Positions 32,531-60,764 of a stretch of DNA of 64,000 nt are shown here, piece by piece; within the stretch, counting starts at the first letter, position 1, and each line of letters starts with the position of its first letter. Origin of the DNA: Verrucomicrobiota bacterium (GTDB lineage: Bacteria > Verrucomicrobiota > Verrucomicrobiia > Opitutales > Opitutaceae). The notes beneath the pieces were generated by a model that saw only the letters and a program-made list of their open reading frames with translations, was not told the DNA's origin and did no database searches. The translations under genes were made by a program, and so were the position numbers. The stretch is taken from assembly GCA_030605125.1 (NCBI GenBank), contig JAUWBD010000001.1:62001-126000 (forward strand). The letters run 5' to 3'.

Positions 32531-32539
32531 TCTCGCCTC

Positions 32540-34406: not shown

Positions 34407-34415
34407 CCCGCCGCC

Positions 34416-37257: not shown

Positions 37258-37296
37258 CTACGCGGCCCTCCGCCACGCCTAGCAAGGGCCGCCGCG

Positions 37297-37315: not shown

Positions 37316-37355
37316 ATCGCCGGCGCGTGGTCGCGGCCTCGCGGCGCGATTCCGC

Positions 37356-38039: not shown

Positions 38040-38194
38040 GGTTACAACGGGGGGGAGGGGCGAGCGGGCGGCCGCAACAATCAGGTCAGACGAGGACCCG
38101 GAGCTTGGGCGGCACCGGCGCCGCGCAAAAGAGGGCTACTATGGGGATGTGTGCAGACGGTGGACGCAGCCGCGTCTCTGGCGAGCCGAATGGC

Positions 38195-38225
38195 TTACAC
38201 CGTTTACCCCATAAGTTATCGATTT
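38195..38225 (-). promoter_or_regulatory. Copy 4 of the shared AraC-locus motif
   Basis: On the minus strand: GATAACTTATGGGGTAA with conserved flanks, oriented toward the prepilin gene and 155 bp from its start. It is the most diverged of the four copies. Confidence 0.5.
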
Positions 38226-38295
38226 GCGTCGAGTCCGGGCGTGCAGACCACGACGCCGCCGCCAACTCGCCATGTGCAGGGGCATGCGGCGCGCC

Positions 38296-40341: not shown

Positions 40342-40384
40342 CGGCCGAGGCTCGCACGCCGACCGGCGGGATTTAAGCCATACG

Positions 40385-40394
40385 GTATGCATAC
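40385..40394. promoter_or_regulatory. Perfect palindrome GTATGCATAC, candidate operator
   Basis: A 10-bp perfect palindrome 43 bp upstream of the GH36-like start. One-base variant at 42612, half sites at 37297, 41355 and 41380. Confidence 0.5.
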
Positions 40395-40434
40395 ATCCGG
40401 ACCCGAGCCGGACATACGGAGCGGCTCCGCGACC

Positions 40435-41310: not shown

Positions 41311-41354
41311 GCGCGCTTTGTAGAACCGCCCCCTCCGCCTCGCGACTCAATACA

Positions 41355-41387
41355 GTTAACATACGCCTGCCTCCAAAGCGTATTCAC
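41355..41387. promoter_or_regulatory. Candidate operator half sites in divergent promoter
   Basis: GTTAACATAC (41355-41364) and GTATTCAC (41380-41387) lie between the HTH-less sensor and the GntR/LacI-like regulator. Both resemble halves of GTATKCATAC. Confidence 0.4.
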
Positions 41388-41423
41388 CTTGCCCGGCCTT
41401 GACGCTTCATCGAGTCCAGACGC

Positions 41424-42569: not shown

Positions 42570-42611
42570 CCCGCCCCGCCGAGCCGCCCGCGTCGCGGAG
42601 GCCTCGCCCGT

Positions 42612-42621
42612 GTATTCATAC
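42612..42621. promoter_or_regulatory. GTATTCATAC, candidate operator
   Basis: One mismatch from the perfect palindrome at 40385; 55 bp upstream of the GH130 start. Confidence 0.45.
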
Positions 42622-42675
42622 TGTTCGCATATCGTCTCCGCGCGGAGCCGGGCACCGTCGTCGCTTCTTCCCGCC

Positions 42676-43728: not shown

Positions 43729-43740
43729 ACACGTCAAACT

Positions 43741-43772
43741 CGATAAATAACTTTTCGCATAAATCGGACAAC
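43741..43772 (+). promoter_or_regulatory. Copy 3 of the shared AraC-locus motif
   Basis: ATAACTTTTCGCATAAATC, oriented toward the FAD oxidoreductase, whose ATG is 54 bp downstream. It starts 12 bp after the GH130 stop codon. Confidence 0.6.
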
Positions 43773-43825
43773 CGATCCCCGTCGCTCGGCACCCTGGATC
43801 GAACGCATGCTGACCGCCACTCGTC

Positions 43826-45199: not shown

Positions 45200-45210
45200 T
45201 CCCTATCCGT

Positions 45211-45233
45211 GTAGGGGCGTCGCTTGCGACCCC
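45211..45233. repeat. REP-like GTAG hairpin 1
   Basis: GTAG followed by an imperfect palindrome with core GGGGCGTCGCTTGCGACC, 12 bp after the FAD gene stop. Resembles REP units recognised by RAYT transposases (5' GTAG). It could also help terminate the transcript. Confidence 0.55.
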
Positions 45234-45314
45234 GCCGAATACGGGCGGCCACCGCTCCCCGTAAGGTATTCGTTCGCTTTCACCCTGCGCCACTCAACCG
45301 CGCACCCCCGCTCC

Positions 45315-48300
45315 ATGCCCCCCCGCCCCCTACCCATTGCCCTGGCCGCCGCCTTGCTCACCTCCGCCGCGCTCACCGCCGCGGAGCCCGCCATCCCGAT
45401 CACCTTCGAGCTGAAGGAACCGGGCCACGTCACCCTCGTCATCGAGGGCGCCGACGGAAAACGTGTCCGCAACCTCGTCAGCGAAACGCCCTTCCCCGCC
45501 GGCAGGCACACCGTCGCCTGGGACGGACTCGACGACCTCGGGCGCGACCCCCAAGCCGCCAAACACTCCATTTTCCACATCCCCGGCAAGATGGTTTCTC
45601 CCGGCGACTACACCGTGCGCGGCCTCGCCCACCCGGGCATCGACATCGTGTATCAGCTCACTCCCTACACGGAGGGCCGCCCGCCGTGGAACAACGGCGA
45701 TCCCGCCTCCCAGTGGCTCACCAACCACAGCGCCCCCAGCGGCGTGGCGTTCGTTCCCGCCGGAGGGGCGCCGACGCGTGAAGGCAAACCATCGTCCGCC
45801 GGCCCGCAGGTGCTCATCGCCAGCCGCGTCGCCGAGGGCGGCAGCGGCCTCGCCTGGCTCGACATGGACGGGCGCAAGGTCTGGGGCCAGCACTGGCTCG
45901 GCGGCGTCTGGACCGCCGCCTCGCACCTCTCCGTCGATCACGGCTCCCGCACCGTCGAGGGCGTTTACGCCTATGCCGCCGCCTCGTGGCCGGGCGACAA
46001 ATACAACAACTACCGCTCCGAACTTCGTCTCCACAAACTCATGGCCGCCGGCCACGGCGTGAAGGCCCCCAGGGACAAACGCTTCGGCACCGGCGAAGAC
46101 CGCCCGGTCCTCGAACCCACCTACTCCATCCCCCTTTCGCAACCGCTCCCCGACGACTTCGCCAAGCGCCCCGAGCGCGAGCAAAGGAGCCTCGTCCGCT
46201 CCCGCTCCGCCGACCTCACCGGGCTCGCGGTTCACAACGGCATCGTCTGGGCCGCCTTCGCCGACCGCGATTTCGCCGTCGTCATCGACGCCCACGCCGG
46301 CAAGGAGCTCGGCACCGTCTCCATCCCCGCCGTGCGCGGCCTCGCCTTCGACCGCGCGGGCAATCTCCACGCCCTCTCCCAAGGCCGCCTGCTCCGCTTC
46401 GCCATCGACTTCGCCACGCCCGCCAACCTCCCCGCGCCCGTCGTCCTCGTCTCCAACCTGGAGGACCCCCAGTCCGTCACGATCGACGACAATGGCGTGC
46501 TCTACGTCAGCGACTGGGGCGACAGCCACCAAGTCAAACGCTTCACCGCCGACGGCCGCCCGCTCGCGCCGATCGGCGAACCAGGCGCGCCCGCCATCGG
46601 TCCCTACAACCCGCGCAAGCTCAGCAAACCCGCCGGCATGGCCGTGGACGACCGCGGTCGCCTCTGGGTTGCCGAAAACACCCACACGCCCAAGCGCGTC
46701 AGCCTGTGGAACACCGGGGACGCCTCCCTCATCGACGCCTTCTACGGCCCCATGCGCTACGGCGGCTCGGGCGCCGTCGATCCCAAGGACCCGACCCGCT
46801 TCTTCTACGACGACGACCACGGCGGGGGCATCGAGTTCAAGCTCGACTACGCCATCGGCCGCTCGACGCCCGTATCCATTTACTACCTACCCGACCACGA
46901 CCAGACCGGCATCACCGGTCGCTACGTCGGTGGCGCGCCCAGCTATCCCCTCCATAACGGCGTCCGCACCTACCTGACCAACGCCTACAGCCTCCACACC
47001 ACCGGCCGCCGCAGCGCCACGCTCTGGCGGCGCGACGACGACGGCGTCGCCCGCATCGTCGCCGCCGCCGGCTCCACGCTCGACTCGAACGGCGCGCTCC
47101 TGCCCGTCTTCGCCCGCGACGACATCCGCGCCAAGATGCCCCCCGGCCACGACCCCGCCTCGCCCAAGGCGTTCTTCTTCGTTTGGTCCGACCTCGACGG
47201 CGACCAACTCGTCTCGCCCGACGAGATCCAGATCGCCGACGCCGGCGACTTTTCCGGGAACAAGACACCGCGCCCCAACATCATCGGCGTGGCCATCGAC
47301 GACGCCCTCGTCTGGACCGTGGCCAACCTCGGCGGCGCCCTCGTGCAACTCCGCCCCGTGTCCGTCAACGCCGCCGGCGCTCCGGTTTACGATCTCGCCA
47401 AGACCGACGTCCTCTCCCGCGCCGTGCAAGCGCCCGCCAGCAGCGGCCACGCCCAGGCGCTCTCCGCCCGCGATGGCTGGACGATCACGACCACTCCGCT
47501 CGCCCCGCACCCGCGCGAGGCTGTCGGCGCCGCGCGCAACGGCGAAGCCATCTGGTCCTACCCCAGCCTCTGGCCCGGTCTCCACGCCTCGCACATCGCC
47601 CCCATGCCGGAAAATTCCGGCCAGTTGGTCGGCACCACCCGCGTCATCGGCAACGTCATCGACGCCCCGCCCGGCTCCGACGCCGGCCAGCTCTTCGCCA
47701 TCAATTCCAACAAAGGCGTGATCTACGTCTTCACCGTGGACGGTCTCTTCGTCACCCGTCTCTTCCAAGATTGCCGCACCACCTCCTGGCGAGCCCCCGA
47801 AGCCATCCGCGGCATGTCCGTCGCCCACCTCTCGCTCCAAGAGGAATGCTTCGGCCCGATGTGGACCCGCGCCTACGACGGCCGTGTGTTCCTCCAGGGC
47901 GGCTTCCCCGGCAACATCATGACCGTCGAGCACCTCGACAAAGTCCGCCGTCTCCCCGACAAGCGCATCACCGTCACTCGCGAGCAACTCGCCGCCGCGC
48001 AGGCCGAAAACCTTCGCGCCGAGGCCGAACGTCAAGCCGCCCGTGAAATCAAACCGCTCGCCATTCCCGCCTCTTCGCCCGCCCCCGTCGTGGACGGCAG
48101 ACTCGACGACTGGGCCGGCGCGCAATGGCTCCCCATCGACAAACGCACCGCCAAGGTCGGCAACTGGGGCAAACGTCCCGTCGAGTCCGCCGCCTCCGCG
48201 CGCATCTCCGGCGACCGCCTCTACCTCGCCTGGAGAACCTACGATCCCGAGCTCCTGCGCAGCAGCGGCGAATCGATGAACAACCTCTTCAAGACCGGCG

Positions 48301-48797
48301 GCGCCCTCGATCTCATGATAGGCGCCGACGCCTCCGCCGACCCCGCGCGCCGCGCCGCCGTCGCCGGCGACCGCCGCCTCCTGGTCACCCAGGTCAAAGG
48401 CAAGACCGTCGCCGTTCTTTACTCCCCCGTATCGCCCGGCGCCACGACTGAGCCGGTCGTCTTCGGCTCGCCGCTGCGCACCCTGCGCTTCGACCGCGTC
48501 GATGTCGTCAGCGACAAAGTCGCGCTCGCCTACGAGATCAAACCCGACCTCGAAAAAGACAAAAACGGCTCGATCAAAGCCGCGACCTTCGAGGTCTCCG
48601 TTCCGCTCTCGGTCCTCGGCTTCGTCCCGAAGCCGGGTTCGTCCCACCGTTTCGACATCGGACTCCTCCGCGGCGACGGCGCGCAGACGCTCCAGCGCGT
48701 TTACTGGAGCAACAAAGCCTCCGGCCTCGTGAGCGACATCCCCAGCGAAGCCGAGCTCATCCCCGCCCTTTGGGGCACGCTCCAGATTATCGATTAA
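45315..48797 (+). CDS. Giant secreted beta-propeller protein with FlgD-like and CBM9-like domains
   Basis: 1160 aa. Signal peptide about 1-22 (LPIALAAALLTSAALTAA). Order: FlgD-like Ig domain (about 28-105, GRHTVAWDGLDDLGRD), NHL-type propeller (about 120-870, VLYVSDWGDSHQVKRF, with a calcium-loop-like SDLDGDQLVSPDE), an Ala/Glu-rich helix (REQLAAAQAENLRAEAERQA) and a C-terminal CBM9/DOMON-like domain starting APVVDGRLDDWAGAQW. It shares most modules with the protein at 7920 but lacks the N-terminal CBM9-like domain. Probably binds or processes polysaccharide outside the cytoplasm; no catalytic residues recognised. Confidence 0.75.
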   Translation: MPPRPLPIALAAALLTSAALTAAEPAIPITFELKEPGHVTLVIEGADGKRVRNLVSETPFPAGRHTVAWDGLDDLGRDPQAAKHSIFHIPGKMVSPGDYTVRGLAHPGIDIVYQLTPYTEGRPPWNNGDPASQWLTNHSAPSGVAFVPAGGAPTREGKPSSAGPQVLIASRVAEGGSGLAWLDMDGRKVWGQHWLGGVWTAASHLSVDHGSRTVEGVYAYAAASWPGDKYNNYRSELRLHKLMAAGHGVKAPRDKRFGTGEDRPVLEPTYSIPLSQPLPDDFAKRPEREQRSLVRSRSADLTGLAVHNGIVWAAFADRDFAVVIDAHAGKELGTVSIPAVRGLAFDRAGNLHALSQGRLLRFAIDFATPANLPAPVVLVSNLEDPQSVTIDDNGVLYVSDWGDSHQVKRFTADGRPLAPIGEPGAPAIGPYNPRKLSKPAGMAVDDRGRLWVAENTHTPKRVSLWNTGDASLIDAFYGPMRYGGSGAVDPKDPTRFFYDDDHGGGIEFKLDYAIGRSTPVSIYYLPDHDQTGITGRYVGGAPSYPLHNGVRTYLTNAYSLHTTGRRSATLWRRDDDGVARIVAAAGSTLDSNGALLPVFARDDIRAKMPPGHDPASPKAFFFVWSDLDGDQLVSPDEIQIADAGDFSGNKTPRPNIIGVAIDDALVWTVANLGGALVQLRPVSVNAAGAPVYDLAKTDVLSRAVQAPASSGHAQALSARDGWTITTTPLAPHPREAVGAARNGEAIWSYPSLWPGLHASHIAPMPENSGQLVGTTRVIGNVIDAPPGSDAGQLFAINSNKGVIYVFTVDGLFVTRLFQDCRTTSWRAPEAIRGMSVAHLSLQEECFGPMWTRAYDGRVFLQGGFPGNIMTVEHLDKVRRLPDKRITVTREQLAAAQAENLRAEAERQAAREIKPLAIPASSPAPVVDGRLDDWAGAQWLPIDKRTAKVGNWGKRPVESAASARISGDRLYLAWRTYDPELLRSSGESMNNLFKTGGALDLMIGADASADPARRAAVAGDRRLLVTQVKGKTVAVLYSPVSPGATTEPVVFGSPLRTLRFDRVDVVSDKVALAYEIKPDLEKDKNGSIKAATFEVSVPLSVLGFVPKPGSSHRFDIGLLRGDGAQTLQRVYWSNKASGLVSDIPSEAELIPALWGTLQIID

Positions 48798-48812
48798 TAT
48801 CCCTCTGGTTTT

Positions 48813-48840
48813 ATCTGCGCCCATCTGCGAAATCTGCGGT
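48813..48840. repeat. Three tandem 9-10-mers with ATCTGCG core
   Basis: Three consecutive units starting ATCTGCG, differing only in the last two or three bases, sit in the 61-bp gap before the oxidoreductase gene. Same layout as at 17504 and 62224. Confidence 0.7.
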
Positions 48841-48858
48841 CCAAATTCGTCCCTCTCC

Positions 48859-49818
48859 ATGATCCGCGTCGGACTCCACGGGCTCAACGGCCACCAAATT
48901 CACCCGGCACTCGTCGCCCACCCGAACGCCAAGCTCGTCGCCATCGCCGATATCTCACGCGAAAAGCTCGCGCCGTCTCAGGCCGCCGACGTCTCACTCC
49001 GCGTCCACGCGAGCTTCGACGCGCTCATAGCCGATCCCGATATCGATTTCATCTCGCTCTGCTCCCCTCGCCGCGCCGATCAGGCCGCCCTCGCCATCCG
49101 CGCCCTGCGCGCCGGCAAGCACGTGCTCGCCGAAAAACCCTGCGCGCTCACCGAGGCCGACCTCGACGCCATCATCGCCGCCGCCCGCGAGACCGGCCGT
49201 GTTTTCCACGAGATGGCCGGCACCGGCTTCAGCCAGCCCTACTTCGCCCTGCGCGAAGTCGTTCGCTCCGGCGTGCTCGGTGAAATCGTGCAAGTGATCT
49301 CCGAGAAGTCCTACCCCTACGCCGACTGGCGTCCACAAGACGAAGCGCTCGACGGCGGCCTCATCCTCCAAAACGCCGTCCACGCCCTGCGTTTCGTCGA
49401 ACACGTCGCCGGCACGCAAATCGCGTCCGTGCTCGCCGCCGAAACCACGCTTGGCAACCCCGTCGCCGGCGGCGGGCTCCGCATGGCATCGGCCCTCCTC
49501 CTCACGCTGCGCAACGGCGGACTCGCCTCGATCACCGCCAACTACCTCAACCAATCCGGCACCGGCGTGTGGGGCAACGAGTCGCTGAAAATCCTCGGCT
49601 CCCGCGGCTTCGTCGAATCCGCCGCCGGCGGCAAACACACCCGCCTCGTCGTCGGCGACCGCGACTTTGGTCCGCTCGACACGTCCTCACCCGGTATCAA
49701 TTGGTTGGATACAATCTTTTCCGATATCGAAGGCCGCGGGAAACTCCCGCTCACGCTCGAAGAGGAACTCTCCCCCACCCGCTGGGCCCTGCGCGCCAAG
49801 GCGGGCCTCGCTCGCTGA
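48859..49818 (+). CDS. Gfo/Idh/MocA-family NAD(P) oxidoreductase
   Basis: 319 aa. N-terminal Rossmann fold (IRVGLHGLNGHQIHP, VAIADISREKL) and the family's EKP motif (HVLAEKPCALT, about 92-94), then the mixed alpha/beta substrate domain. Likely oxidises a sugar or sugar derivative produced from the same glycan. Its 3' end overlaps, on the other strand, 132 bp of the tail of the AraC ORF. Sixty-one bp after the propeller gene, with a triple repeat in the gap. Confidence 0.85.
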   Translation: MIRVGLHGLNGHQIHPALVAHPNAKLVAIADISREKLAPSQAADVSLRVHASFDALIADPDIDFISLCSPRRADQAALAIRALRAGKHVLAEKPCALTEADLDAIIAAARETGRVFHEMAGTGFSQPYFALREVVRSGVLGEIVQVISEKSYPYADWRPQDEALDGGLILQNAVHALRFVEHVAGTQIASVLAAETTLGNPVAGGGLRMASALLLTLRNGGLASITANYLNQSGTGVWGNESLKILGSRGFVESAAGGKHTRLVVGDRDFGPLDTSSPGINWLDTIFSDIEGRGKLPLTLEEELSPTRWALRAKAGLAR

Positions 49819-50859
49819 CGCGGCCCGGCGCTCGCTCCGTCCTTTGCCGACTCGGTCCGCTTCGTGAAGCAGTAGGATCGCGGCCGCGATCCGGCGTGTC
49901 AGGCCCCGGCGCGACCGAAGGTCTTTTTCCCTTCCTCTTCTCAAACGCCCGGGGCGCTCGCGCGCCTCCTGCGTTTGAAAAGCGCGGGGAGACGCGCCCT
50001 CATGCCGCTTAAACCAAGCCGAGAAATGAGAGAGCTGGCGAAAGCCCAGTTCGTAGGCGACCTGCTTGACCGACTGCTTGCCCGCCTTGAGCGCCCGACG
50101 CGCGCGCTCCATCCGTCCGCGCTCCCAATACTGATGAAGCGTGAAACCGTAGATTTGGGCGCAGACACGATTCAGTCGTCCCGTGCTCAAGCCGCTCGCT
50201 CGCGTCACCGCCTCCTCCGGATATCCGCCTCCGGGCGTCTGGGAATCGATCACCTGCAGGGCGCGCGCCACCCGGGGGTCTGTCGATTCCGGGATTCTCA
50301 TTTTCAGGCCCGCTTCCATCAAGGCCTCGACCAGCGCACCCTGCCAGGCCTGCCAATGCCGCTGATACTCCAGAAAACGCGGATAGCTCATCTGGTTTCG
50401 CCAATGAAAAACGGTGCGCATGTCGCGCTCGTAGTCGTCGTTCCATCTCAGCTTTTCCGTCAGCGCCAGAAGTCGGCGCGCATGGCGCTCGAGGCTCGGA
50501 TGCTCCCGCGCATCGATCACCACGAGCGCCTTTCCCTCAAACAAGGGCGATCCATCCGGCCAACTCTGCGACACGCGTAGCGCCAACAGGCGCGTGTCCG
50601 GCGCGAAGCGCTGCGTCACCCGCGAGCCGAAGCACACCAGCCACTGCCCCTTCCCCGCGCGCGCCGTCTCCCCGTCCGAGGCGATCTGCGCCCGGCCCTC
50701 GCGCACCAGCCACGCGCTGAACTCGCGCTCCCGCTCGCCGCTGCGATCCGCCTTCCCCGCCGGGATCACGCTGTCGTGAATGAAGAGCAGCTCGGTGCGC
50801 ACGCTCTCCCAGTCGTGCAGGCTGCTCGTATCCCCGGAAGCGAAGTCGGTCTCACGCAT
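49687..50859 (-). CDS. AraC-family transcriptional regulator with antisense-overlapping C-terminal tail
   Basis: 390 aa from ATG 50859 (MRETDFASGDTS). An N-terminal cupin-like sensor (about 1-175) precedes the double HTH (about 190-290: VTRASGLSTGRLNRVCAQIYG, then VKQVAYELGFRQLSHFSAWFKR). AraC proteins normally end just after this point; here the frame stays open for about 95 more residues of Arg/Ala-rich sequence, through a REP-like palindrome and into the antisense strand of the oxidoreductase gene. The tail is probably non-functional read-through. Divergent from the beta-helix gene; the shared motif begins 9 bp upstream of its own start. Confidence 0.8.
   Translation of the reverse strand: MRETDFASGDTSSLHDWESVRTELLFIHDSVIPAGKADRSGEREREFSAWLVREGRAQIASDGETARAGKGQWLVCFGSRVTQRFAPDTRLLALRVSQSWPDGSPLFEGKALVVIDAREHPSLERHARRLLALTEKLRWNDDYERDMRTVFHWRNQMSYPRFLEYQRHWQAWQGALVEALMEAGLKMRIPESTDPRVARALQVIDSQTPGGGYPEEAVTRASGLSTGRLNRVCAQIYGFTLHQYWERGRMERARRALKAGKQSVKQVAYELGFRQLSHFSAWFKRHEGASPRAFQTQEARERPGRLRRGREKDLRSRRGLTRRIAAAILLLHEADRVGKGRSERRAASASEARLGAQGPAGGGEFLFEREREFPAAFDIGKDCIQPIDTG
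49873..49893. repeat. REP-like GTAG palindrome 2
   Basis: GTAG directly followed by the perfect 18-bp palindrome GGATCGCGGCCGCGATCC. Lies between the oxidoreductase 3' end and the AraC HTH, inside the open tail of the AraC ORF. Confidence 0.6.
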
Positions 50860-50867
50860 CGGCTGCA

Positions 50868-50897
50868 AATAGATAACTTTTGGCGTAAGCCGACAAC
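50868..50897 (+). promoter_or_regulatory. Copy 1 of the shared AraC-locus motif
   Basis: GATAACTTTTGGCGTAAGCC with flanks AATA and GACAAC, in the AraC/beta-helix divergent promoter. The GATAAC/GACAAC ends form a direct repeat 20 bp apart, typical of AraC binding sites. Confidence 0.65.
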
Positions 50898-51024
50898 TCC
50901 ATTCGATTGCCCGTCCCGCGCGCGGGTTCGAATCTCGCGCCAATCCCCGCCCCCCGTCCGACCGCCTCGTCATCCATGGCGAACCACGCGGAACGACGAC
51001 TTCCACCCCAAACCACCGTCATTC

Positions 51025-53718
51025 ATGCCCCTCCGTGCCCCCTCGCTCCCGCGCGCCCTCGTCGTTGTCCTCGGCCTGCTCTCCTCCATCACCGCTGCAG
51101 CCTTCGGCCAACCCCCCTTGGTCTTCACCCACACCAAATCCGCCCTGCCCGGAGACATGATCGTCATCCACGGCGCGCGATTCATCCAGGGGACCGACAT
51201 GCCCGAGGTCTGGTTTGACACGATGACTGGCGATACCTCGCCGCCATCGCCCACCACGCAATCCACGGAGGTGGTCTCGCAGACCGCCACCCTGCTCCAC
51301 GTCCGCGTGCCCGAATCCCTTTCCCCCGGCCTCTATGCCGTCTTCGTGAAACGCGGCGCTTTCACCAGCGCGCCCCTCTGGATCAACCGCGCCGACGCCT
51401 GGCAGGTTCTCGACCTCGCCGGCACCGAAATCGACCCCGGCCGACCGTTTCGACTCTATGGCTGGAACCTCGAGCTCTCCGGAGCGGCCTCCCAGGTCTG
51501 GTTCGAAAACATCGATACCCTCGCCCGCACCGCCGCCACCGTCACCGCGCTCGATCGCGCCAACCTGCTGCAAGCCACCGCGCCCGCCACCTTGGTCCCC
51601 GGCCAGTCCTATCGCCTCATCGTGAGCAACGGTCACGGCGGAGCCTACGGAGAGACCGCCGGCCCCGTGCTCTCCTGCCTAGCCACCCCGGTTGATGCCC
51701 TCGGCCTCGGCGTGCCCTGGGCCGACGAATACGCCTTCGCCGCCGCCACCGTGATCAACGTCAAAGCCCCCCCGTTCAACGCCGTGGGCGACGGCATCGC
51801 CGACGACTCCGCCGCCATCCAGGCCGCCTGCGACGCCGCCACCGCCGCCGGAGGAGCACAGGTCTATTTCCCCGCCGGCACCTACAACCTGGGAAGCACC
51901 ATCGTCCGCCTCGGCGCCAGGATCGTCCTCCGCGGCGACGGCCCCGCCCACTCCACCATCCACGGCGAGATCAACCCCAAGAACTCAAACACCTCCTCCC
52001 ATCTCGGCATCGCCGATCTCCGGCTCACCGGCGGCCGCCTCCGCATGAACAGCAAACCCGGTCCCGTCTTCGCCGTCCGCTCCGAGTTCGACGTGCCCGG
52101 CGGCTCCGCCCTCGACGTCCAATCCTGCACCAGCAAGGCGCTCGTGCGCGATTGCAGCATCATCGCCCGCTCCATCTCGCAGAAAAACGTCTTCAACTGC
52201 AGCAACACCCGCAACCTCCTCTTCAAGGACAACTACATGCAGTGGTCCGACGGACGCATCTACGCCGTCGGCGGTCGGGATCTCCAGATCGATGGCTCCG
52301 TCTTCATGCGCACCTCCGTCACCACTCCGTCCAATGGTGTCGAATATGGCGGGTGGGCCCTCGACCGCGCCAGCAACGTCGCCGTGATCGACAACTCCTT
52401 CGGGAAAATCGGCTCCGGCCCGATCATCCAGTCCAACGACGGCGAGACCATCCTCAACCAATCCGTCCCCCGCCTCGGCTTCGGCGCCGTCGGCTCCGCC
52501 ACCGCCAACACCCTCACCGACGGCGCGCAGGCCTGGACCACCGACCAGCTCGTGAACGAGGACGCGCACGTCCTCATCGTCTCCGGCCCCGGCGAAGGCC
52601 AGTGGCGCCACATCGTCTCCCACACCTCCGACACGCTCACCCTCGACACCCCCTGGGATATCGTCCCCACCACCGCGTCCGGCTACGTCGTCACGCGCAA
52701 GGACGTCAACTGGCTCGTCGCCGGAAACCTCTTCGAAGACTGCCCCCGCCCCATCTGGCTCTATAGCTGCACCATGGCCGACGTCGCCATCGTGGACAAC
52801 CACTTCGTCAACTCCGGCGACATCTACCTGCGCTCCGACCAGCGCCAAAGCGACGGTCGCCACACCGTCTTCCACAACGTGCTGATCCAGGACAACGAGA
52901 TCGTGAACACCAACCACGTCTATCCCTCGCAGCTCGTTTTTCAGGCCACCGTGCCCGGCACCGGCTCCGAGGTCCGCCTCGGCAACGGCTTCTGGGACGT
53001 CGTCGTGCGCCACAACACCATCGACTCCCTCCGCCCCTCCCTCGGCGCCGGCAGCGGTTACGGCGTCGTCGGCGAAGGCTATTTCGCCGTCACCAACGGC
53101 AACGGATCCGGGCTCGACGGCCGCGAGGGCATCAAAGGACTCCTCTTCGACCGCAACGCCGCCTGGAACCTCGACCACGCCTACCACACCTCGACCGGCG
53201 TCTCGCGCACGACCATCCATCGCCCCGCCTTCGCCAACATCGGCTCGCCGCTCCACGACTTCGTCCGTCCCGGAGCCACCCAGGGCGCGCTCGACACCGT
53301 CGTCGTCGCCGGCTCCCATATCCTCGACAACACCGACCACTCCGGCCTCGCCGTCACCGGCCTCTGGACCGCATCGACCAGCAGTCCCGGCTACGTCGGC
53401 CCCGACTACCAGCACGACCGCAATGCCGACAAAGGCGCCAAAACCTTCCGCTACACCCCTGAACTTCCCCAAGCCGGCTCCTACGCCGTTTACGCCCGCT
53501 GGGCCGCACACCCCAACCGCGCATCCAACGCCCCCTACACCATCGTTCACGCCTCAGGCTCCGACACCGTCAGCGTAAACCAACGAATCAACGGCGGAGT
53601 CTGGCAGCTCCTTGGCGTTTATTCATTCGCGGCCGGCTCCGCCGGGCATGTCACCCTCGGCACCGCCTCCACCGACGGCTTCGTCATCGCCGACGCAGTC
53701 CGGTTCGTGGGCCAATAA
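51025..53718 (+). CDS. Secreted parallel beta-helix (pectate-lyase-superfamily) protein with golvesin-like C-terminal domain
   Basis: 897 aa from ATG 51025 (signal peptide RALVVVLGLLSSITAAAFGQ); the track's 50776 start runs through the promoter. About 30-210 contains IPT/TIG-like beta domains. About 235-760 is a right-handed beta-helix opening with NAVGDGIADDSAAIQAACDA and VYFPAGTYNLGSTIVRLG, the Pectate_lyase_3/rhamnogalacturonase-like start. About 790-897 is a golvesin/Xly-type domain (AGSYAVYARWAAHPNRA, ending FVIADAVRFVGQ). Substrate is probably an acidic polysaccharide; catalytic residues are not certain. Divergent from the AraC gene. Confidence 0.8.
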   Translation: MPLRAPSLPRALVVVLGLLSSITAAAFGQPPLVFTHTKSALPGDMIVIHGARFIQGTDMPEVWFDTMTGDTSPPSPTTQSTEVVSQTATLLHVRVPESLSPGLYAVFVKRGAFTSAPLWINRADAWQVLDLAGTEIDPGRPFRLYGWNLELSGAASQVWFENIDTLARTAATVTALDRANLLQATAPATLVPGQSYRLIVSNGHGGAYGETAGPVLSCLATPVDALGLGVPWADEYAFAAATVINVKAPPFNAVGDGIADDSAAIQAACDAATAAGGAQVYFPAGTYNLGSTIVRLGARIVLRGDGPAHSTIHGEINPKNSNTSSHLGIADLRLTGGRLRMNSKPGPVFAVRSEFDVPGGSALDVQSCTSKALVRDCSIIARSISQKNVFNCSNTRNLLFKDNYMQWSDGRIYAVGGRDLQIDGSVFMRTSVTTPSNGVEYGGWALDRASNVAVIDNSFGKIGSGPIIQSNDGETILNQSVPRLGFGAVGSATANTLTDGAQAWTTDQLVNEDAHVLIVSGPGEGQWRHIVSHTSDTLTLDTPWDIVPTTASGYVVTRKDVNWLVAGNLFEDCPRPIWLYSCTMADVAIVDNHFVNSGDIYLRSDQRQSDGRHTVFHNVLIQDNEIVNTNHVYPSQLVFQATVPGTGSEVRLGNGFWDVVVRHNTIDSLRPSLGAGSGYGVVGEGYFAVTNGNGSGLDGREGIKGLLFDRNAAWNLDHAYHTSTGVSRTTIHRPAFANIGSPLHDFVRPGATQGALDTVVVAGSHILDNTDHSGLAVTGLWTASTSSPGYVGPDYQHDRNADKGAKTFRYTPELPQAGSYAVYARWAAHPNRASNAPYTIVHASGSDTVSVNQRINGGVWQLLGVYSFAAGSAGHVTLGTASTDGFVIADAVRFVGQ

Positions 53719-53742
53719 GCGCCGCCTATCAGCACCAGCCCC

Positions 53743-53769
53743 GTGGCGGGCGTCGCTCGCGGCGCCCGC
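53743..53769. repeat. REP-like GTGG hairpin 3
   Basis: GTGG followed by a hairpin GCGGGCG...CGCCCGC whose centre (GGGCGTCGCT) matches copy 1 at 45211. Located 24 bp after the beta-helix gene. Confidence 0.5.
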
Positions 53770-53789
53770 ACGATGCCTTGTTCGACGCC

Positions 53790-53819
53790 AATAGATAAGT
53801 TTTAGCGTAAATCAGAAAG
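53790..53819 (+). promoter_or_regulatory. Copy 2 of the shared AraC-locus motif
   Basis: ATAGATAAGTTTTAGCGTAA, 46 bp upstream of the small secreted protein gene and oriented toward it. Confidence 0.6.
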
Positions 53820-53865
53820 TTCTAAACATCGCCCCGCCGTCCTCGGCCGCGTCACTTTTGCCCCG

Positions 53866-54594
53866 ATGTCGCCCCGTTTCGCTATTACCCCTTTCCTCGC
53901 GCTCGCCTGCTTCGGCGTCCTGTTCGCGGCCGCTGCCTCCCTCCGCGCCGCGCCGGTGTATTCGCACACGTTCAACGGCGCGCCCGACGCCGGCCTTCAC
54001 GGCCTGCCGCTTGAGATCGGCGCCGGCGCCTGGATCGCCTCCGAAACCGCCAGGGCCGACGGCACCGACACCGCCCAATCGACCGCATGGATTCCCTACG
54101 CGTTCGACTCCGGCGTTTACACCGTCACCCTCACCCTCGATCTCTCGGCCCTGCCCGCCAACAACAACGGACTCATCGGCATCGGCTTCACCAACGCCTC
54201 CTCCCCGCGCACCGGCGACTTCGTCCACTCGACCAGCTCGGTTCACAGCGCGTTTGGCCTGCGTGGCACGAGCGACTGGGCGTTCTGGGGCGGCCGCGGC
54301 AAACTGCAACCGGTGGACGGAGGGGGGCCCACCTTCCCGCGTCAGAACACCCTGAAACTGGTTCTCGATACCACGAGACCCAACTGGATGGTCACCGCTT
54401 CGCTGCTCGACGAAAACGGCGCCGAGATACGGGTCGATCTCTCTCCCGACGATCCCACCTCCAACGCCTACACCTACGAGACGAATCCCGCGCCCTTCAC
54501 CGGCGTCGGCGTCCTCCTGCGCTCCAGCGCCGGCCGAGCCGTCCACTTCGCCTTCTCGGCCGAGCCCCGCCCGACCTCCGCGCCTCTCCGTTAA
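53866..54594 (+). CDS. Secreted protein of unknown function, lectin-like
   Basis: 242 aa with a clear signal peptide (FLALACFGVLFAAAASLRAA). The mature protein starts PVYSHTFNGAPDAGLHGLPL and is all-beta, with GVYTVTLTLDLSALPANNNG and LKLVLDTTRPNWMVTASLLD, which recall concanavalin-like glycan-binding folds often preceding PEP-CTERM tails. No PEP-CTERM motif is present at the end (PRPTSAPLR). It is directly upstream of a PEP-CTERM repeat protein (39 bp) and has the shared motif in its promoter. Role unknown; glycan binding is a guess from fold and place. Confidence 0.65.
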   Translation: MSPRFAITPFLALACFGVLFAAAASLRAAPVYSHTFNGAPDAGLHGLPLEIGAGAWIASETARADGTDTAQSTAWIPYAFDSGVYTVTLTLDLSALPANNNGLIGIGFTNASSPRTGDFVHSTSSVHSAFGLRGTSDWAFWGGRGKLQPVDGGGPTFPRQNTLKLVLDTTRPNWMVTASLLDENGAEIRVDLSPDDPTSNAYTYETNPAPFTGVGVLLRSSAGRAVHFAFSAEPRPTSAPLR

Positions 54595-54633
54595 TCATTC
54601 CTCCCGACCCGACACCCCACACCACCCGCCTCG

Positions 54634-56136
54634 ATGAAATCCACCGCCCTCCACACGCTTCGCCTCGCCGCCCTGCTCGGCTCCATCCCCGCCCTCCACG
54701 CCGCCAGCGGCACCTGGAACACCACCGCCTCCGGCAACTGGAGCGACTCCACCAAATGGATCGACAACATCGTCGCCGACGGCTCCGGCTTCATCGCGAC
54801 GTTCCAGGCCCCCACGCCCAACACCAGCTCCCCCGTCGTCACCATCACCCTCGACAGCGACCGCACCATCGGCGGCCTCTTCTTCAACGGCCCCAACGCC
54901 GGCGGCGTCGGCACCCACAACTTCACGCTCTCCGGCCCCGGCGTGCTCACCCTCGCCGGCTCCACCACGCCCACCGTGACCGGCGGCCTCACCTCACGCA
55001 CCGCCACGGTTTCGGTATCCCTGGCCGGCACCCAAGGCGTAACTTTCGAGAACTCGGGCACCGTCTCCAACACGACCCTCATCATCGCCGGCAACAACAC
55101 CTACACCGGTGAAACCACCATCGCGGGCAACAACCGCATCGTGACCATCGCCCACAACAACGCGCTGGGCTCCACCAACGGTGGCACCACCGTGTCATCG
55201 AACTCCGCGCTGCTCCTTGCCAACGGCATCACCGTCACCGGTGAAACGCTCAACCTGAGCAGCTCCGGGGCGAGCAGCGAAGGCGCGCTCCGGGTCGCCA
55301 CCGGCGGCTCCGCCGAGTGGGCCGGCGCGATCAACATCACCGGCAACTCGCGTATCACCGCGGGCTCCACCGGCAGCACGATCGGCACCGGCGGCAACCT
55401 CAAGGTCAGCGGCGTCATCGCCGGCTCGGGCAACCTTCAGGTTTCCGGTCTGGGCACGCTGACCTTGAGCGGAGCCAACACCTACACCGGCACCACTCAG
55501 GTCTTCCGCGGCACCCTCAAACTCGACGCGGGCAACAACCGCCTGCCCACCGCCACCGCCCTCACCATCGGCGGCAGCTCCGAGAGCGCCACGCTCGATC
55601 TCAACGGTTACCACCAGCAGGTCGCCCGGCTCGTCAGCGGCTCCGGCTCCGGCGCCCGTATCCTCACCAACACCGGCTCCGCCGCCTCGACCTTCACCGT
55701 CAACCAGACCTCCGGCACCGACACCTTCGACGGCGTCATCGCCGGCAACATTAACTTCGTCAAATCCGGCGCAGGCACCCTCAACCTCACCGGCACCGCC
55801 AACACCTTCACCGGAAACATCACGATCAACGCCGGCACCCTCGGCATCGCCTCCGCCTTCATCAACAACACCGCCGATGTTTCCATCGCCAATGGCGCGG
55901 TCTTTGCCCTCAACTTCGTCGGCACCGACACCATCTCCGGCCTCTGGCTCGCCGGTGTCGCCCAGCAACTCGGCACCTACGGCGCCATCGGCAGCGGCGC
56001 CCAGTTCCAAAGCGCCTTCTTCTCCGGCACCGGCCTCCTCGAGGTCACCTCCGTCATCCCCGAGCCCTCCTCCGCCGCCGCGGCGGCCGGCCTCGCCGCC
56101 CTCGGGCTCGTCGGCCTTCGCCGCCGTCGTCGCTAA
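54634..56136 (+). CDS. PEP-CTERM autotransporter-associated beta-strand repeat protein
   Basis: 500 aa. Signal peptide about 1-24 (LAALLGSIPALHAA), then the family cap SGTWNTTASGNWSDSTKW. Beta-helix repeats: LSGANTYTGTTQVFRGTLKL and LTGTANTFTGNITINAGTLG are typical autotransporter-associated repeats. The end is a PEP-CTERM sorting signal: VIPEPSSAAAAAGLAALGLV then GLRRRRR. A surface or matrix protein handled by an exosortase encoded elsewhere. Ends with a strong terminator at 56173. Confidence 0.9.
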   Translation: MKSTALHTLRLAALLGSIPALHAASGTWNTTASGNWSDSTKWIDNIVADGSGFIATFQAPTPNTSSPVVTITLDSDRTIGGLFFNGPNAGGVGTHNFTLSGPGVLTLAGSTTPTVTGGLTSRTATVSVSLAGTQGVTFENSGTVSNTTLIIAGNNTYTGETTIAGNNRIVTIAHNNALGSTNGGTTVSSNSALLLANGITVTGETLNLSSSGASSEGALRVATGGSAEWAGAINITGNSRITAGSTGSTIGTGGNLKVSGVIAGSGNLQVSGLGTLTLSGANTYTGTTQVFRGTLKLDAGNNRLPTATALTIGGSSESATLDLNGYHQQVARLVSGSGSGARILTNTGSAASTFTVNQTSGTDTFDGVIAGNINFVKSGAGTLNLTGTANTFTGNITINAGTLGIASAFINNTADVSIANGAVFALNFVGTDTISGLWLAGVAQQLGTYGAIGSGAQFQSAFFSGTGLLEVTSVIPEPSSAAAAAGLAALGLVGLRRRRR

Positions 56137-56172
56137 ACCGACAAACCGCTCCGTATCCTTTGTGTCCCCGTG

Positions 56173-56202
56173 GCCGCCGGCATTCGCCGGCGGCTATTTT
56201 TT
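56173..56202 (+). terminator. Intrinsic terminator after PEP-CTERM gene
   Basis: Perfect 9-bp stem GCCGCCGGC / GCCGGCGGC with loop ATTC, followed by TATTTTTTG. The GH130 start codon lies 14 bp further on, as at the other PEP-CTERM gene. Confidence 0.85.
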
Positions 56203-56216
56203 GCCCACACCCTGCC

Positions 56217-57266
56217 ATGCCCGACCTCGCCGTTCGCTTCGCTCAAAACCCCATCATTCGCCCCGCCGACGTGGTCCCCAGCCGCGATGGCATGGAGGTC
56301 GCCTGCGTGCTCAATCCCGGCGCCTTCCGCTTTCAGGGCCGCACCGGCCTCCTCCTTCGTATCGCCGAGCGCCCCGTGCAGGAGGCAGGCTGGATCTCCA
56401 CGCCCGTCCTCGATCCCGCCAAACCCGGCGGCATCGACATCGTCCGCTTCCCCGAGTCCGAGTGCAAATGGATCGAGGACGCCCGCATCTTTTCCCACCA
56501 GGGCCGCGGCTACCTCACCACGCTCTCGCACCTCCGGCTCGCCTGGTCCGACGACGGCGTGAAGTTCGGCATCGAAACCAAACCCACGATCATGGGTGAA
56601 GGTCCGCTCGAAGCCTTCGGCATTGAAGACTGCCGCGTCACCCAGATCGGCGACACCTATCATCTCCACTTCACCGTCGTCTCCGACGCCGGTTTTGGTG
56701 TCGGCTACATCTCGACCACCGATTGGAAAACCTACCAACGTCACGGCGTCGTCATCCCGCCTCCGAACAAAGATTTCGCGCTCTTCCCGGAAAAAATCGG
56801 CGGCTACTACTACGCCCTCCACCGCCCCACCCACCACGCGCTCGGCGGTCCCTACATCTGGATCTCCCGCTCGCCCGACCTCCTCCACTGGGGCGATCAT
56901 CACTGCGTCGCCCGCCCACGCCCCGGCGCCTGGGACGCCCAAAAACTCGGCGGCGGCGCCGAGCCCATCAAAACCGAAAAAGGCTGGCTCGAAATCTACC
57001 ACGGCGTCGCCAAGGACTCCCAATACTGCCTCGGCCTTCTCCTCTTCGACCTCCACGATCCCCGCAAGCTGCTCGCACGCTCCGAGCTCCCGATCATGAA
57101 ACCGATCGAGCCCTACGAACTCACCGGCTTCTTCGGCAACGTCGTCTTCACCAACGGCCACGTCGTCGATGGCGACACCATCACGCTCTACTATGGCGCC
57201 TCCGACGAGGTCATCTGCGGCGCCACCCTCTCCATCAAGCAACTCCTCGCCTCGCTCGAAGCCTGA
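56217..57266 (+). CDS. GH130 beta-mannoside phosphorylase-like enzyme (copy 2)
   Basis: 349 aa from ATG 56217. Nearly collinear with the copy at 42676 (shared runs such as FRFQGRTGLLLRIAERPVQE and PPNKDFALFPEKI), differing mostly around residues 80-115. Same propeller, FGIEDCRVT catalytic region and LGGPYIWISRSPDLLHWGDH. Cytoplasmic; linkage preference open. It heads an operon with an oxidoreductase and GH52 xylosidase. A terminator lies just upstream, so its own promoter is not evident. Confidence 0.85.
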   Translation: MPDLAVRFAQNPIIRPADVVPSRDGMEVACVLNPGAFRFQGRTGLLLRIAERPVQEAGWISTPVLDPAKPGGIDIVRFPESECKWIEDARIFSHQGRGYLTTLSHLRLAWSDDGVKFGIETKPTIMGEGPLEAFGIEDCRVTQIGDTYHLHFTVVSDAGFGVGYISTTDWKTYQRHGVVIPPPNKDFALFPEKIGGYYYALHRPTHHALGGPYIWISRSPDLLHWGDHHCVARPRPGAWDAQKLGGGAEPIKTEKGWLEIYHGVAKDSQYCLGLLLFDLHDPRKLLARSELPIMKPIEPYELTGFFGNVVFTNGHVVDGDTITLYYGASDEVICGATLSIKQLLASLEA

Positions 57267-57338
57267 ATCGCAGATTCGCCGCGTCTCGAAGCCACTCGCG
57301 CGCGGCGGACCTGAATCGAACGCTCCCGCCCCGCTCTC

Positions 57339-58361
57339 ATGCACGCCCCCGCCTCGCTGCCCATCGGCGTTGTCGGCCTCAACTTCGGCCGGCACATCCT
57401 CGATCAACTCCTCCGCGACACCGTCCGGCCGCACCTCCGCCTCGCCGCCGTGTGCGACATCGACGCCCCCAAGGCCGCCGACTACGCCGCCCGCTTTGGC
57501 GTCAAGTCCTTCACGTCCCTCGACGATCTCATCGCCGATCCCGCCATCCCCATCATCGGCCTTTTCACCGGCCCGGTCGGCCGCGCCGCGCTCGTCCGCA
57601 AGATCATCCGCGCCGGCAAACATGTCGTCACCACCAAGCCCTTCGAAACCGATCCCGACGCCGCCCTTGAAGTCCTTCGCGAGGCTCGCGCCCTCGGCCG
57701 CGTCGTCCACCTCAACTCTCCCGGCCCCGTGCCCCCGGACGACATCGCGAAAATTCTGTCATGGATTTCCGAATACAAACTCGGCGCCCCCGTCGGCGCC
57801 CGGGCCGACGTCTGGGCGAGCTACCGCGAGCAAGCCGACGGCACCTGGTATGACGACCCGCAAAAGTGCCCCGTCGCCCCCGTCTTCCGCCTCGGCATCT
57901 ACCTGATCAACGACCTCATCCGGATCTTCGGCCCCGTGCGCGAGACCCACGTCTTCCAATCGCGCCTCCTCACCGGCCGCCCCACCGCCGACAACGGCCA
58001 GCTCTCCCTCCTCTTTGAAAACGGCGCCCTCGGCAACGTCTTCGCCTCCTTCTGCGTCAACGACGGCGACCACTACCGCAACAGCCTCGTCCTCAATTTC
58101 GAGCGCGGCACCATCTACCGCAACGCCGGCCCCGACCGTGTCGGCAACCACAGCGAACTCTCCCTCGTCATGACCCGCGCCGAGCGGCGCGAAGTCGTCG
58201 CCCGCGAGATCGTCGAGGGCACCAGCGGCGCCTACAACTGGAGCGCCTTCACCCGCGCCGTGCGCGGCGAGCCTCTCCCCGACGAAACCACGCCCGAGCA
58301 AATCGTGGCCGGCCTGCGCGTCATCCAGGCCATGGCCCGCACCGCCAACCGCCTCGATTGA
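57339..58361 (+). CDS. Gfo/Idh/MocA-family NAD(P) oxidoreductase
   Basis: 340 aa. Rossmann start PIGVVGLNFGRHILDQLL; the usual EKP motif reads TKP (HVVTTKPFETD, about 99-101), so the Lys-Pro pair is kept but the Glu is replaced. The C-terminal substrate domain contains QADGTWYDDPQKCPVAPVFR. Likely a sugar or sugar-acid dehydrogenase for the xylose- or mannose-containing product of neighbouring enzymes. The gap to GH52 is 8 bp. Confidence 0.8.
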   Translation: MHAPASLPIGVVGLNFGRHILDQLLRDTVRPHLRLAAVCDIDAPKAADYAARFGVKSFTSLDDLIADPAIPIIGLFTGPVGRAALVRKIIRAGKHVVTTKPFETDPDAALEVLREARALGRVVHLNSPGPVPPDDIAKILSWISEYKLGAPVGARADVWASYREQADGTWYDDPQKCPVAPVFRLGIYLINDLIRIFGPVRETHVFQSRLLTGRPTADNGQLSLLFENGALGNVFASFCVNDGDHYRNSLVLNFERGTIYRNAGPDRVGNHSELSLVMTRAERREVVAREIVEGTSGAYNWSAFTRAVRGEPLPDETTPEQIVAGLRVIQAMARTANRLD

Positions 58362-58369
58362 GGCCGCCG

Positions 58370-60472
58370 ATGCACTACCACGCCCAGCACGCCCCCTTCG
58401 GCGCCTTCGCCAGCTTCACCCTCGGCCTTCCCGGCGCGCGCGGCGGCTTCGGCCAATCCCTCCCCGGCCCCGCCGATCAAGACGTTTACATCGGTTTCCG
58501 CCGCGTCGCCGCCGACGGCGCCCCCGCCACGCCTTGGCAGCTCCTGCCTTACTACCAACGCCCGCAAGTCGCCGCCGTCGCCGCCTTCACCGGCGAAAAC
58601 ACCCGGTCCGCCTCGCACGAGCCGCAGCCCATCGGCCTCGAAAAAATCGAGCGCCGCCTCGGCTGGGCCAGCGACACCTGGCGCCACGAGGGTTTTTCGT
58701 TCTGCCTCTTCAGCCCCTTCGGCCCCACCGCGGAGCCCGACACGATGGCCGACGACGTCGCCCGCCGCGCCTTCGCCCCCGTCGTCTGCGCCGAGATCGG
58801 TTTCGACAACACCCACGGGGCCGAAGACATCGAGTTGCTCTTCGGCATCGGCCACGCCGAGCACCCGCTTCGCCCGCTCGAGGACTCCGCCGCCGACCTC
58901 GCCGGCTTCGCCCTCGGCCACGCCCACGGCTTCGCCGCGCGCCCCGCCGACGTCCACTCGCGTATCCAAGGATTGGATATGTTCAACCCTCCCGCCCGCG
59001 ACCACCGCGGCCTCCACCTGCTCGGCCAGGAGGCCGCGCTCGTTTTCCGGGTGCGCGCCGGCGAGGCTCGCCGTTTACCGCTCGCGCTCGGATTTTACCA
59101 GGCCGGCGACGTCACCACCAGCCTGCGCTCACGCTACTACTACACCAAATTCTTCGACGACCTCGAAGCCGTCCTCCGCCACGGCCTCGCCGAACACGCC
59201 TTCTACTCCGAGACCTCCGAGGCCCGCGACGCCGAGCTCGCCACCTCCGGGCTCGACGTTGACCAGCGCTGGCTCATCGCCCAGGCCACCCACAGCTACC
59301 TCGGCAGCAGCCAGCTCATGCTCCACCGGGGCCGCGCCCTCTGGATCGTCAACGAAGGCGAATACCGCATGATCAACACCTTCGACCTCACGGTGGATCA
59401 TCTGTTCCTCGAGCTCGCCTGGCACCCGTGGGCCGTCGCCAACACCCTCGACCTCTTCGCGCGACGTTACCGCTACACCGACACGATCCAGCGCCCCGGC
59501 GACCACGCCGTCCTCCGCGGCGGCGTGTCCTTCACCCACGACATGGGCGTGATGAACCAGTTCACCCCGCCCGGCCGCTCCAGCTACGAATGCGAACGCC
59601 TCCACGGCTGCTTCTCGCACATGACGATGGAGCAGCTCCTCAACTGGATCTGCTGCGCCGCCACCTACGTTGAGAAAACCGGCGACCACGAATGGCTGCG
59701 CGGCCATCGCCGCCTGCTCCTCGCCTGCGCCGAGAGCCTGCGCCGCCGCGACGATCCGCGCGCCGCCCGCCGCACCGGTATTCTCAAATGGGACAGCCAC
59801 CGCTGCGGCGCCGACGGCGGCGAGATCACCACCTACGACTCGCTCGACGTCTCCCTCGGCCAGGCCCGCAACAACCTCTACATCGCGGTCAAGGCCTACG
59901 CCGCCTGGGCGCTCCTCGAACGCGCCTTCGCCGCTCTCGAAGAGCCCGCGGAATCCACCTCCGCCCGCGCCGCCGCCGACCTCGCCGCCCGTGCCATCGC
60001 GGCGAAGTTTGAGGCCGACACCGGCCTCTTCCCCGCCGTCTTCGAAGCCGGCAACCGCTCCCGCATCCTGCCGGCCGTCGAAGGCCTCGTGTTCCCGCTC
60101 TACCTCGGTTTCGCCGACGAGCTTCGTGCGCGCCACCCCGATCTCTTCGCCAAGCTCTCGACCCACATCACCAAGGCCCTCCAGCCCGGCGTCTGCCTCG
60201 ACGCCGACAGCGGCGCGTGGAAAATCTCCAGCACCAGCCGCAACACCTGGTTCAGCAAGATCGCCCTCGCCCAGCACGTCGTGCGAAAGCTCTTCCCCGA
60301 AGCGCTCAACGAAAAGGCGCGAGCCGCCGACGCCGTGCACGCGAAGATGCAGCAAAGCGAACCTCTCGGCCGCTACGCGATGGTGGACCAGGTGGACAGC
60401 TCCACCGGCGTCTCACTCGGCAGCCGCTATTACCCGCGCATCGTTACCGCCTGCCTCTGGTTGGATCGCTGA
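58370..60472 (+). CDS. Beta-xylosidase, GH52
   Basis: 700 aa, about the length of GH52 enzymes. The fold-wide signature is strong: HHAPFGAF-like opening (YHAQHAPFGAFASFTLGLPG), NEGEYRMINTFDLTVD (about 328-343; the GH52 nucleophile Glu is in this block), GGVSFTHDMGVMNQF, GCFSHMTMEQLLNWICCAA, ITTYDSLDVSLGQARNN (acid/base Asp) and WKISSTSRNTWFSKIAL. Releases xylose from non-reducing ends of xylo-oligosaccharides. No signal peptide, so intracellular. I use ATG 58370; the track's TTG 58358 overlaps the previous stop. Last gene of the GH130-oxidoreductase operon. Confidence 0.92.
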   Translation: MHYHAQHAPFGAFASFTLGLPGARGGFGQSLPGPADQDVYIGFRRVAADGAPATPWQLLPYYQRPQVAAVAAFTGENTRSASHEPQPIGLEKIERRLGWASDTWRHEGFSFCLFSPFGPTAEPDTMADDVARRAFAPVVCAEIGFDNTHGAEDIELLFGIGHAEHPLRPLEDSAADLAGFALGHAHGFAARPADVHSRIQGLDMFNPPARDHRGLHLLGQEAALVFRVRAGEARRLPLALGFYQAGDVTTSLRSRYYYTKFFDDLEAVLRHGLAEHAFYSETSEARDAELATSGLDVDQRWLIAQATHSYLGSSQLMLHRGRALWIVNEGEYRMINTFDLTVDHLFLELAWHPWAVANTLDLFARRYRYTDTIQRPGDHAVLRGGVSFTHDMGVMNQFTPPGRSSYECERLHGCFSHMTMEQLLNWICCAATYVEKTGDHEWLRGHRRLLLACAESLRRRDDPRAARRTGILKWDSHRCGADGGEITTYDSLDVSLGQARNNLYIAVKAYAAWALLERAFAALEEPAESTSARAAADLAARAIAAKFEADTGLFPAVFEAGNRSRILPAVEGLVFPLYLGFADELRARHPDLFAKLSTHITKALQPGVCLDADSGAWKISSTSRNTWFSKIALAQHVVRKLFPEALNEKARAADAVHAKMQQSEPLGRYAMVDQVDSSTGVSLGSRYYPRIVTACLWLDR

Positions 60473-60695
60473 CAAGCCTGTCAGGGACGGGACTGATATC
60501 ATCAAACGATCCGCGCTATGTATCGGGCCGCGCCAAGGAATCTTTTACCGCGCCCAAGATTTGCCACGGATTTGTCAGGGCACAGGAAACCAGCGTGCAC
60601 TGATTGCTCCTTACGACATCCTCTTTCGTATCATAAACCACCACATAACAACTTAAGGCCAAATAAACGAAGGCTTTCCGGGTTGCGGCGAAACT

Positions 60696-60721
60696 TGGCT
60701 CGAGTCCCCGCCATCCCGCCA
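60696..60721 (+). other. tRNA/tmRNA 3'-end remnant, candidate att site
   Basis: T-loop-like CTCGAGT, then CCCCG and an acceptor-like CCATCCC-G-CCA, as at the 3' end of a tRNA or tmRNA. The 5' half of the T-stem (CTTGG) does not pair and no matching GGGATGG acceptor strand exists upstream, so only the 3' end is present. It is followed at once by a strong terminator. This is the usual form of an attR left by an integrated island. Confidence 0.5.
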
Positions 60722-60729
60722 ATTTTGGC

Positions 60730-60764
60730 CCCCGATCACCGCAAGGTTATCGGGGCTTTTTCTT
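60730..60764 (+). terminator. Intrinsic terminator with GNRA-loop hairpin
   Basis: Stem CCCCGAT...ATCGGGG, one mismatch, then ACC-GCAA-GGT, followed by CTTTTTCTT. It belongs to the RNA gene remnant just upstream rather than to the xylosidase gene, which ends 257 bp away. Confidence 0.85.

Follow-up and report, generated by a model that had tools for sequence, protein, structure and literature searches.

A tRNA-Asp 3' remnant next to rhaA probably marks the far end of a large glycan-catabolism island in an Opitutaceae bacterium

In a 64,000-nt stretch of a draft genome from the Opitutaceae (the window), a cluster of glycan-catabolism genes is separated from the L-rhamnose isomerase gene rhaA by what looks like the 3' end of a tRNA with an adjoining terminator. 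Is this the trace of an integrating element, and did the glycan genes arrive with it? We consider it very probable that window positions 60560-60764 (Table 1) are the attR, or far end, of a large island that inserted into the 3' end of tRNA-Asp(GTC), with the subsequent history that is described below.

A displaced tRNA-Asp 3' end and its terminator

The 25 nt of the remnant (GGCTCGAGTCCCCGCCATCCCGCCA) correspond to the last 25 nt of tRNA-Asp(GTC). Neither ARAGORN nor Rfam called a tRNA, a tmRNA, or any Rfam family in the window, so this is a remnant without a 5' half, as the initial annotation of this DNA had described it. That annotation had also allowed for a tmRNA, but the intact tmRNA (on contig C117) has a different 3' end. 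Small-RNA families gave only sub-threshold chance matches.

Across the whole genome (271 contigs), the sole other match to a 23-mer from the remnant, at up to 3 mismatches, was the 3' end of the genome's only intact tRNA-Asp, which is tRNA-Asp(GTC) at C147:36346-36422 on the minus strand. The second copy that the initial annotation had sought does exist, although it is not identical to the remnant (22/25). We find it scarcely credible that the remnant is an ordinary intergenic terminator that happens to follow a C-rich stretch. The lack of a tRNA or Rfam call in the window alone would suit such a chance resemblance, but only about 0.06 equally good matches are expected by chance per genome. 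Also, the remnant comes with an attachment arm, a terminator of the tRNA-Asp type, and a partner site (see below), and the matches to the arm already refute the role of chance.

Three substitutions distinguish the remnant from the intact gene, and one of them is the C in the T-loop. This C had been seen as weakening the case for a tRNA remnant; it is indeed present, but decay of the displaced core explains it. Among displaced tRNA-Asp remnants in related genomes, nine have 0 or 1 differences in the core and a tenth has 2, as compared to 3/25 in the window. This fits a displaced tRNA-Asp fragment that decayed because it was not under selection, and the C in the T-loop accords with that.

The terminator had been described as perfect, but its predicted stem has one internal mismatch. 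It matches the terminators that directly follow tRNA-Asp in four congeners (G107, G111, G114, and G115), while no such terminator follows the intact tRNA-Asp on C147. This pattern agrees with an insertion between the tRNA and its terminator. The sequence just upstream of the remnant core (60473-60696) is AT-richer, as had been noted.

Between the terminator and rhaA, at 60860-60910, there is a block like AAATTGCTCGAAATCTCTCAGATTCTATCAAACAA that is kept in several congeners, whatever stands further upstream. This block may be the operator of a regulator.

Table 1. Features of the window around the probable attR. Positions are those of the 64,000-nt window; the element and its boundaries are as proposed in the text.
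Feature	Position	Strand	Evidence
Island cargo within the window (proposed): glycan-catabolism genes	1..60559	.	Pfam; none beside rhaA in congeners
Last island gene (proposed): glycoside hydrolase family 52	58358..60472	+	Pfam PF03512, 489 bits
Probable element-borne attachment arm (P-arm side of attR)	60560..60696	+	Same arm in IMCC26134, G115, G012, G211, G123
Probable attR core: displaced 3' end of tRNA-Asp(GTC), T-loop to CCA	60697..60721	+	22/25 vs. intact gene
Probable displaced original tRNA-Asp terminator	60727..60764	+	Terminator-like hairpin in fold; homologous to congener tRNA-Asp terminators
Chromosomal flank, outside the proposed element: L-rhamnose isomerase rhaA	60925..62220	+	Pfam RhaA; 13/14 congeners

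The attachment arm and the integrase family

We compared the remnant to 252 genomes from the family. Most of the matches were the 3' ends of intact tRNA-Asp genes, but some were displaced remnants, and for several of these, the similarity extended upstream of the tRNA part and into non-tRNA sequence. This defines an arm of 137 nt directly 5' of the core, with arm-type sites (TTTGCCACGGATTTGTCAGG) at 60560-60579 and a conserved block (TAAACGAAGGCTTTC) near the core. The same arm precedes tRNA-Asp cores in G123 and G012, tRNA-Ser cores in G115 and IMCC26134, and tRNA-Glu cores in G211. In global alignments of the window's arm to those of the relatives, the z-scores were 6.3-10.0 (1000 shuffles). 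Given that similar arms adjoin cores from three different tRNAs, the arm appears, from these alignments, to travel with the elements and to be independent of the tRNA.

Two of these relatives have both ends of an element in assembled sequence. On the assembled chromosome of G211, a tRNA-Glu is followed by an integrase-side arm and an integrase (near C2:1602564), and 39.4 kb away, at 1563147 and in the same orientation, is the far end, with the arm, a perfect 25-nt core, and a terminator. (The end repeats match at 25/25 in this element, versus 22/25 in the window's island.) Similarly, the complete genome of IMCC26134 (CP011265.1), which is from the same genus, has a tRNA-Ser(CGA) at 2805967 with an arm and an integrase, and the arm and core of the far end lie 37.2 kb away, at 2768725. 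The first 20 bases of its arm are identical to window positions 60560-60579.

If the remnant is an attR, then the intact tRNA-Asp should adjoin the integrase. An integrase near the second copy had been proposed as a check, and on C147, the tRNA-Asp is followed directly by GATTTGCCAGTTGACGTGGCAAATC and then, 62 bp after the gene, by the start of a 92-residue open reading frame. It corresponds to the N-terminus of a family of lambda-type integrases that are about 400 amino acids at full length. The arm beside this integrase fragment and the arm in the window share the same type of arm site (GATTTGYCA).

Members of this integrase family are present in 116 of the 252 genomes. At the loci that we fetched, a GATTTGCCAGTTGACGTGGCAAATC-type inverted repeat, with small variations, precedes the start codon of the integrase. 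The distance from a tRNA gene (tRNA-Ser, -Asp, -Glu, or -His) to this codon is 62-73 bp; otherwise, the codon follows a 3' remnant. More broadly, the upstream sequence was long enough in 75 relatives from named genomes: an intact tRNA or tmRNA lies 59-77 bp before the integrase in 51 of these, and another 12 have a remnant-like 3' end. Two relatives (L227 and L276) directly follow tmRNA genes, which implies that target switches between tRNA and tmRNA have occurred in the family.

The full-length relatives have the catalytic R, K, H-x-x-x-R-H, and Y of tyrosine recombinases. R251, K282, R333, H334, and Y365 are invariant in two alignments; H329 is invariant in one of them and nearly so in the other. 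An AlphaFold2 model of the integrase (mean pLDDT 79) matches the folds of XerA, lambda integrase (PDB 1z1b), and the Tn1549 integrase (PDB 6en2), with E about 1e-7 for lambda Int and XerA. Besides the predicted fold, the family shares R-K-H-R-H-Y and arm-type sites on both sides of the core with lambda Int and Tn1549 Int. By sequence, in contrast, it has no match in PDB, with just 13-18% identity to the solved structures. In lambda Int, the three-stranded N-terminal domain binds the arms, and the fragment on C147 spans this domain.

The integrase scores 19.9 bits against PF00589 from Pfam, which is below the curated cutoff of 27.1, and the family also scores below the cutoffs of the NCBIfam profiles. 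For this reason, the divergent tRNA-adjacent family escaped a PF00589 search of the genome, which picked up three integrases. A PF00589 integrase on C49 is beside tRNA-Val. Two more members of the divergent family lie right after tRNA genes (C53:5336-5714 and C4:5700-6093), so this genome holds at least three such elements or their remnants.

A split prophage probably links the two ends

The intact tRNA-Asp and the window are on different contigs, C147 and C191. Most of a Mu/B3-like transposable prophage, with transposition, terminase, portal, protease, and major head protein genes, occupies C147:1-33514, and the contig end interrupts its tape-measure gene. The terminase is 54% identical to that of Pseudomonas phage B3. 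C191 begins with the end of an open reading frame, followed by a gene whose homolog in G214 comes after the same tape-measure gene in the same orientation, so that the arrangement is co-linear. The tape-measure pieces on the two contigs sum to about 906 amino acids, as compared to 898 in G214, although the similarity of the short C-terminal piece on C191 is not itself significant. A 17-nt inverted repeat that starts with TG has one copy at C147:33514 and the other at C191:4927, right behind the final phage gene; these would be the outer ends of the prophage, with C191:1-4927 as its second part (L072, L074, and L076). The two parts total 38,441 bp, which is within 2 bp of phage B3 (38,439). We found no overlap between the contigs and no convincing target-site duplication at the prophage ends. 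Searches of collections of genomes and of viral contigs with the prophage tail gene brought up no relatives.

Given the co-linearity, the combined tape-measure length, the inverted repeat, and the total length, the order is most likely C147 reversed and then C191. We consider this adjacency across the contig gap to be strongly supported. It would place the glycan cluster between the tRNA-Asp and the remnant, which would be in the same orientation and, most likely, about 159 kb apart. The initial annotation's suggestion that the entire cluster could be an island is thus upheld, given this adjacency, as is its view that the site separates the cluster from the rhamnose genes, with rhaA outside the element. 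The reconstructed order starts at the tRNA-Asp and runs through the integrase fragment, a CBM9-like gene, the prophage, the glycan genes, and the remnant to rhaA.

The island would comprise the 38.4-kb prophage and about 118-120 kb of mainly glycan-catabolism genes. In the window, Pfam hits in the cargo include a GH29-type alpha-L-fucosidase, two GH130 proteins, a GH52, a sulfatase, Gfo/Idh/MocA oxidoreductases, a pectate-lyase-like protein, a sugar ABC transporter ATPase, and a LacI regulator. The cargo that we sampled, from the neighbor of the integrase fragment through GH52, is mostly CAZymes and sugar transport genes: its glycoside hydrolases are from families GH2, GH4, GH29-type, GH42, GH52, and GH130, and it also encodes esterases, sugar transporters, a sulfatase, oxidoreductases, and regulators. 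We saw no housekeeping genes in this sample. The GC content does not differ between the island and its surroundings.

In congeners, the gene order breaks at both junctions, and the cargo is absent at either one in relatives. Of 14 congeners, 13 have rhaA, and the next gene is kept too where the contigs allow, but the sequence before rhaA varies and never matches the window's cluster. GH52 is found in 3 of the 14 and is never beside rhaA. Similarly, five congeners keep the same gene upstream of tRNA-Asp, and the sequence after tRNA-Asp varies. The proposed comparison with relatives is therefore borne out at each junction, but none of the 14 congeners has a clean empty site with both exact flanks (upstream gene, tRNA-Asp, terminator, and rhaA). 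In G107 and G115, tRNA-Asp is instead followed by a groEL-like gene (its product has a Gly/Met-rich C-terminus), which leaves rhaA unproven as the original neighbor; the region near rhaA was possibly rearranged later.

Some congeners have other arrangements around tRNA-Asp. On G114:C70 (L081 and L082), two additional tRNA-Asp 3' ends, which have terminators but lack the window's type of arm, stand about 0.2 and 23 kb beyond the intact tRNA-Asp; a GH52 gene lies further along this contig. On G079:C153 (L089), two tandem tRNA-Asp 3' remnants are about 240 nt apart, which suggests stacked insertions. On G112:C200 (L153), rhaA is preceded, at a distance of 1.4 kb, by an intact tRNA-Asp that points the same way. 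An AraC-type gene and repeats (AAAAACCG) separate the two; this is possibly another type of element.

Could recombination have placed the tRNA 3' end before rhaA, as a copy or by transfer, with no integrating element and with the glycan cluster as ordinary chromosome? The missing empty site and the uniform GC content would be compatible with this, and the arrangement in G112 implies that there are other routes by which tRNA-Asp can reach this neighborhood. But the 137-nt arm is unrelated to the flanks of tRNA-Asp and is common to element ends in assembled genomes, and an integrase fragment and an arm adjoin the intact tRNA-Asp. We consider this scenario very improbable.

A less remote alternative is that the remnant, although truly an attR, belongs to a different element than the one that left today's integrase fragment, so that the 159 kb would be composite or rearranged. 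tRNA-Asp would then be a hotspot with successive insertions: the regions differ among congeners, G114 has two extra remnants at one locus, and G079 has two in tandem. The mismatches in its core also give the window's copy an old look. However, C147 and C191 together (215 kb) contain just two copies of the core and one integrase-side arm, and the shared arm-site type links the two ends. We view two separate elements as unlikely and a single island as the best account.

Proposed history and significance

The assignment of attR draws on features that can be read directly from the sequences: the tRNA-Asp core, the element-type arm, the displaced terminator, the matching integrase-side arm with its integrase fragment, and the control elements in relatives. 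We propose that a lambda-type tyrosine integrase recombined the attP of the element with the tRNA-Asp gene. The tRNA beside the integrase would have been rebuilt with the copy of the 3' end that the element brought, to give attL (on C147), while the last 25 nt of the original gene would have been displaced, together with the terminator, to the far end, to give attR (in the window). The island would have carried about 120 kb, mainly of glycan-catabolism genes, and received a 38-kb Mu/B3-like prophage. Later, the integrase gene would have been cut down to its arm-binding N-terminus, and the displaced core would have drifted. We infer both the order of these events and the arrival of all of the cargo as one element. 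Judging from the truncated gene and the three differences in the 25-nt core, the island is predicted to be unable to excise alone, and it looks old and immobile by itself.

Islands that integrate into tRNA or tmRNA genes and that are mapped by the displaced fragment are a well-known kind (Islander type; PMC6917214). As in those islands, there is a tyrosine integrase beside the intact tRNA, a displaced 3' fragment at the far end, and cargo between them. This island differs in that its integrase is truncated and belongs to a family that is below the Pfam and NCBIfam cutoffs, its fragment has decayed (22/25), it is very large, and a transposable prophage is nested within it. The prophage resembles B3 and other Mu-like phages in its terminase, its transposition genes, and its length, but here it would be a mere passenger in the island and not the maker of the tRNA remnant. 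In our search of the literature, we did not find a description of such an island or integrase family in Opitutaceae or Verrucomicrobiota. The integrase family is divergent and is common in this bacterial family. Of interest are this integrase family, the constancy of its arms, and how large the catabolic cargo is.

The signatures of the two ends (GATTTGYCAGTTGACGTGGCAAATC before the integrase and TTTGYCA...GAAGGCTTTC before the displaced core) could be used to find such islands in draft genomes, even if the integrase scores below the cutoffs or has been lost. Changes of tRNA target could also be studied in the integrase family, which provides a natural series for this purpose. A broader idea, which we put forward tentatively and would not yet favor, is that Opitutaceae-type Verrucomicrobiota share a family of elements in which the integrase and arms are nearly constant and the cores are swapped (Ser, Glu, Asp, His, Leu, and tmRNA), and that these elements are a lineage-wide vehicle for glycan islands of up to ~120 kb. 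For the window itself, a 25-nt scrap now maps where a large catabolic island ends, in a group known as polysaccharide degraders, and the island may illustrate one route by which these bacteria gain glycan clusters.
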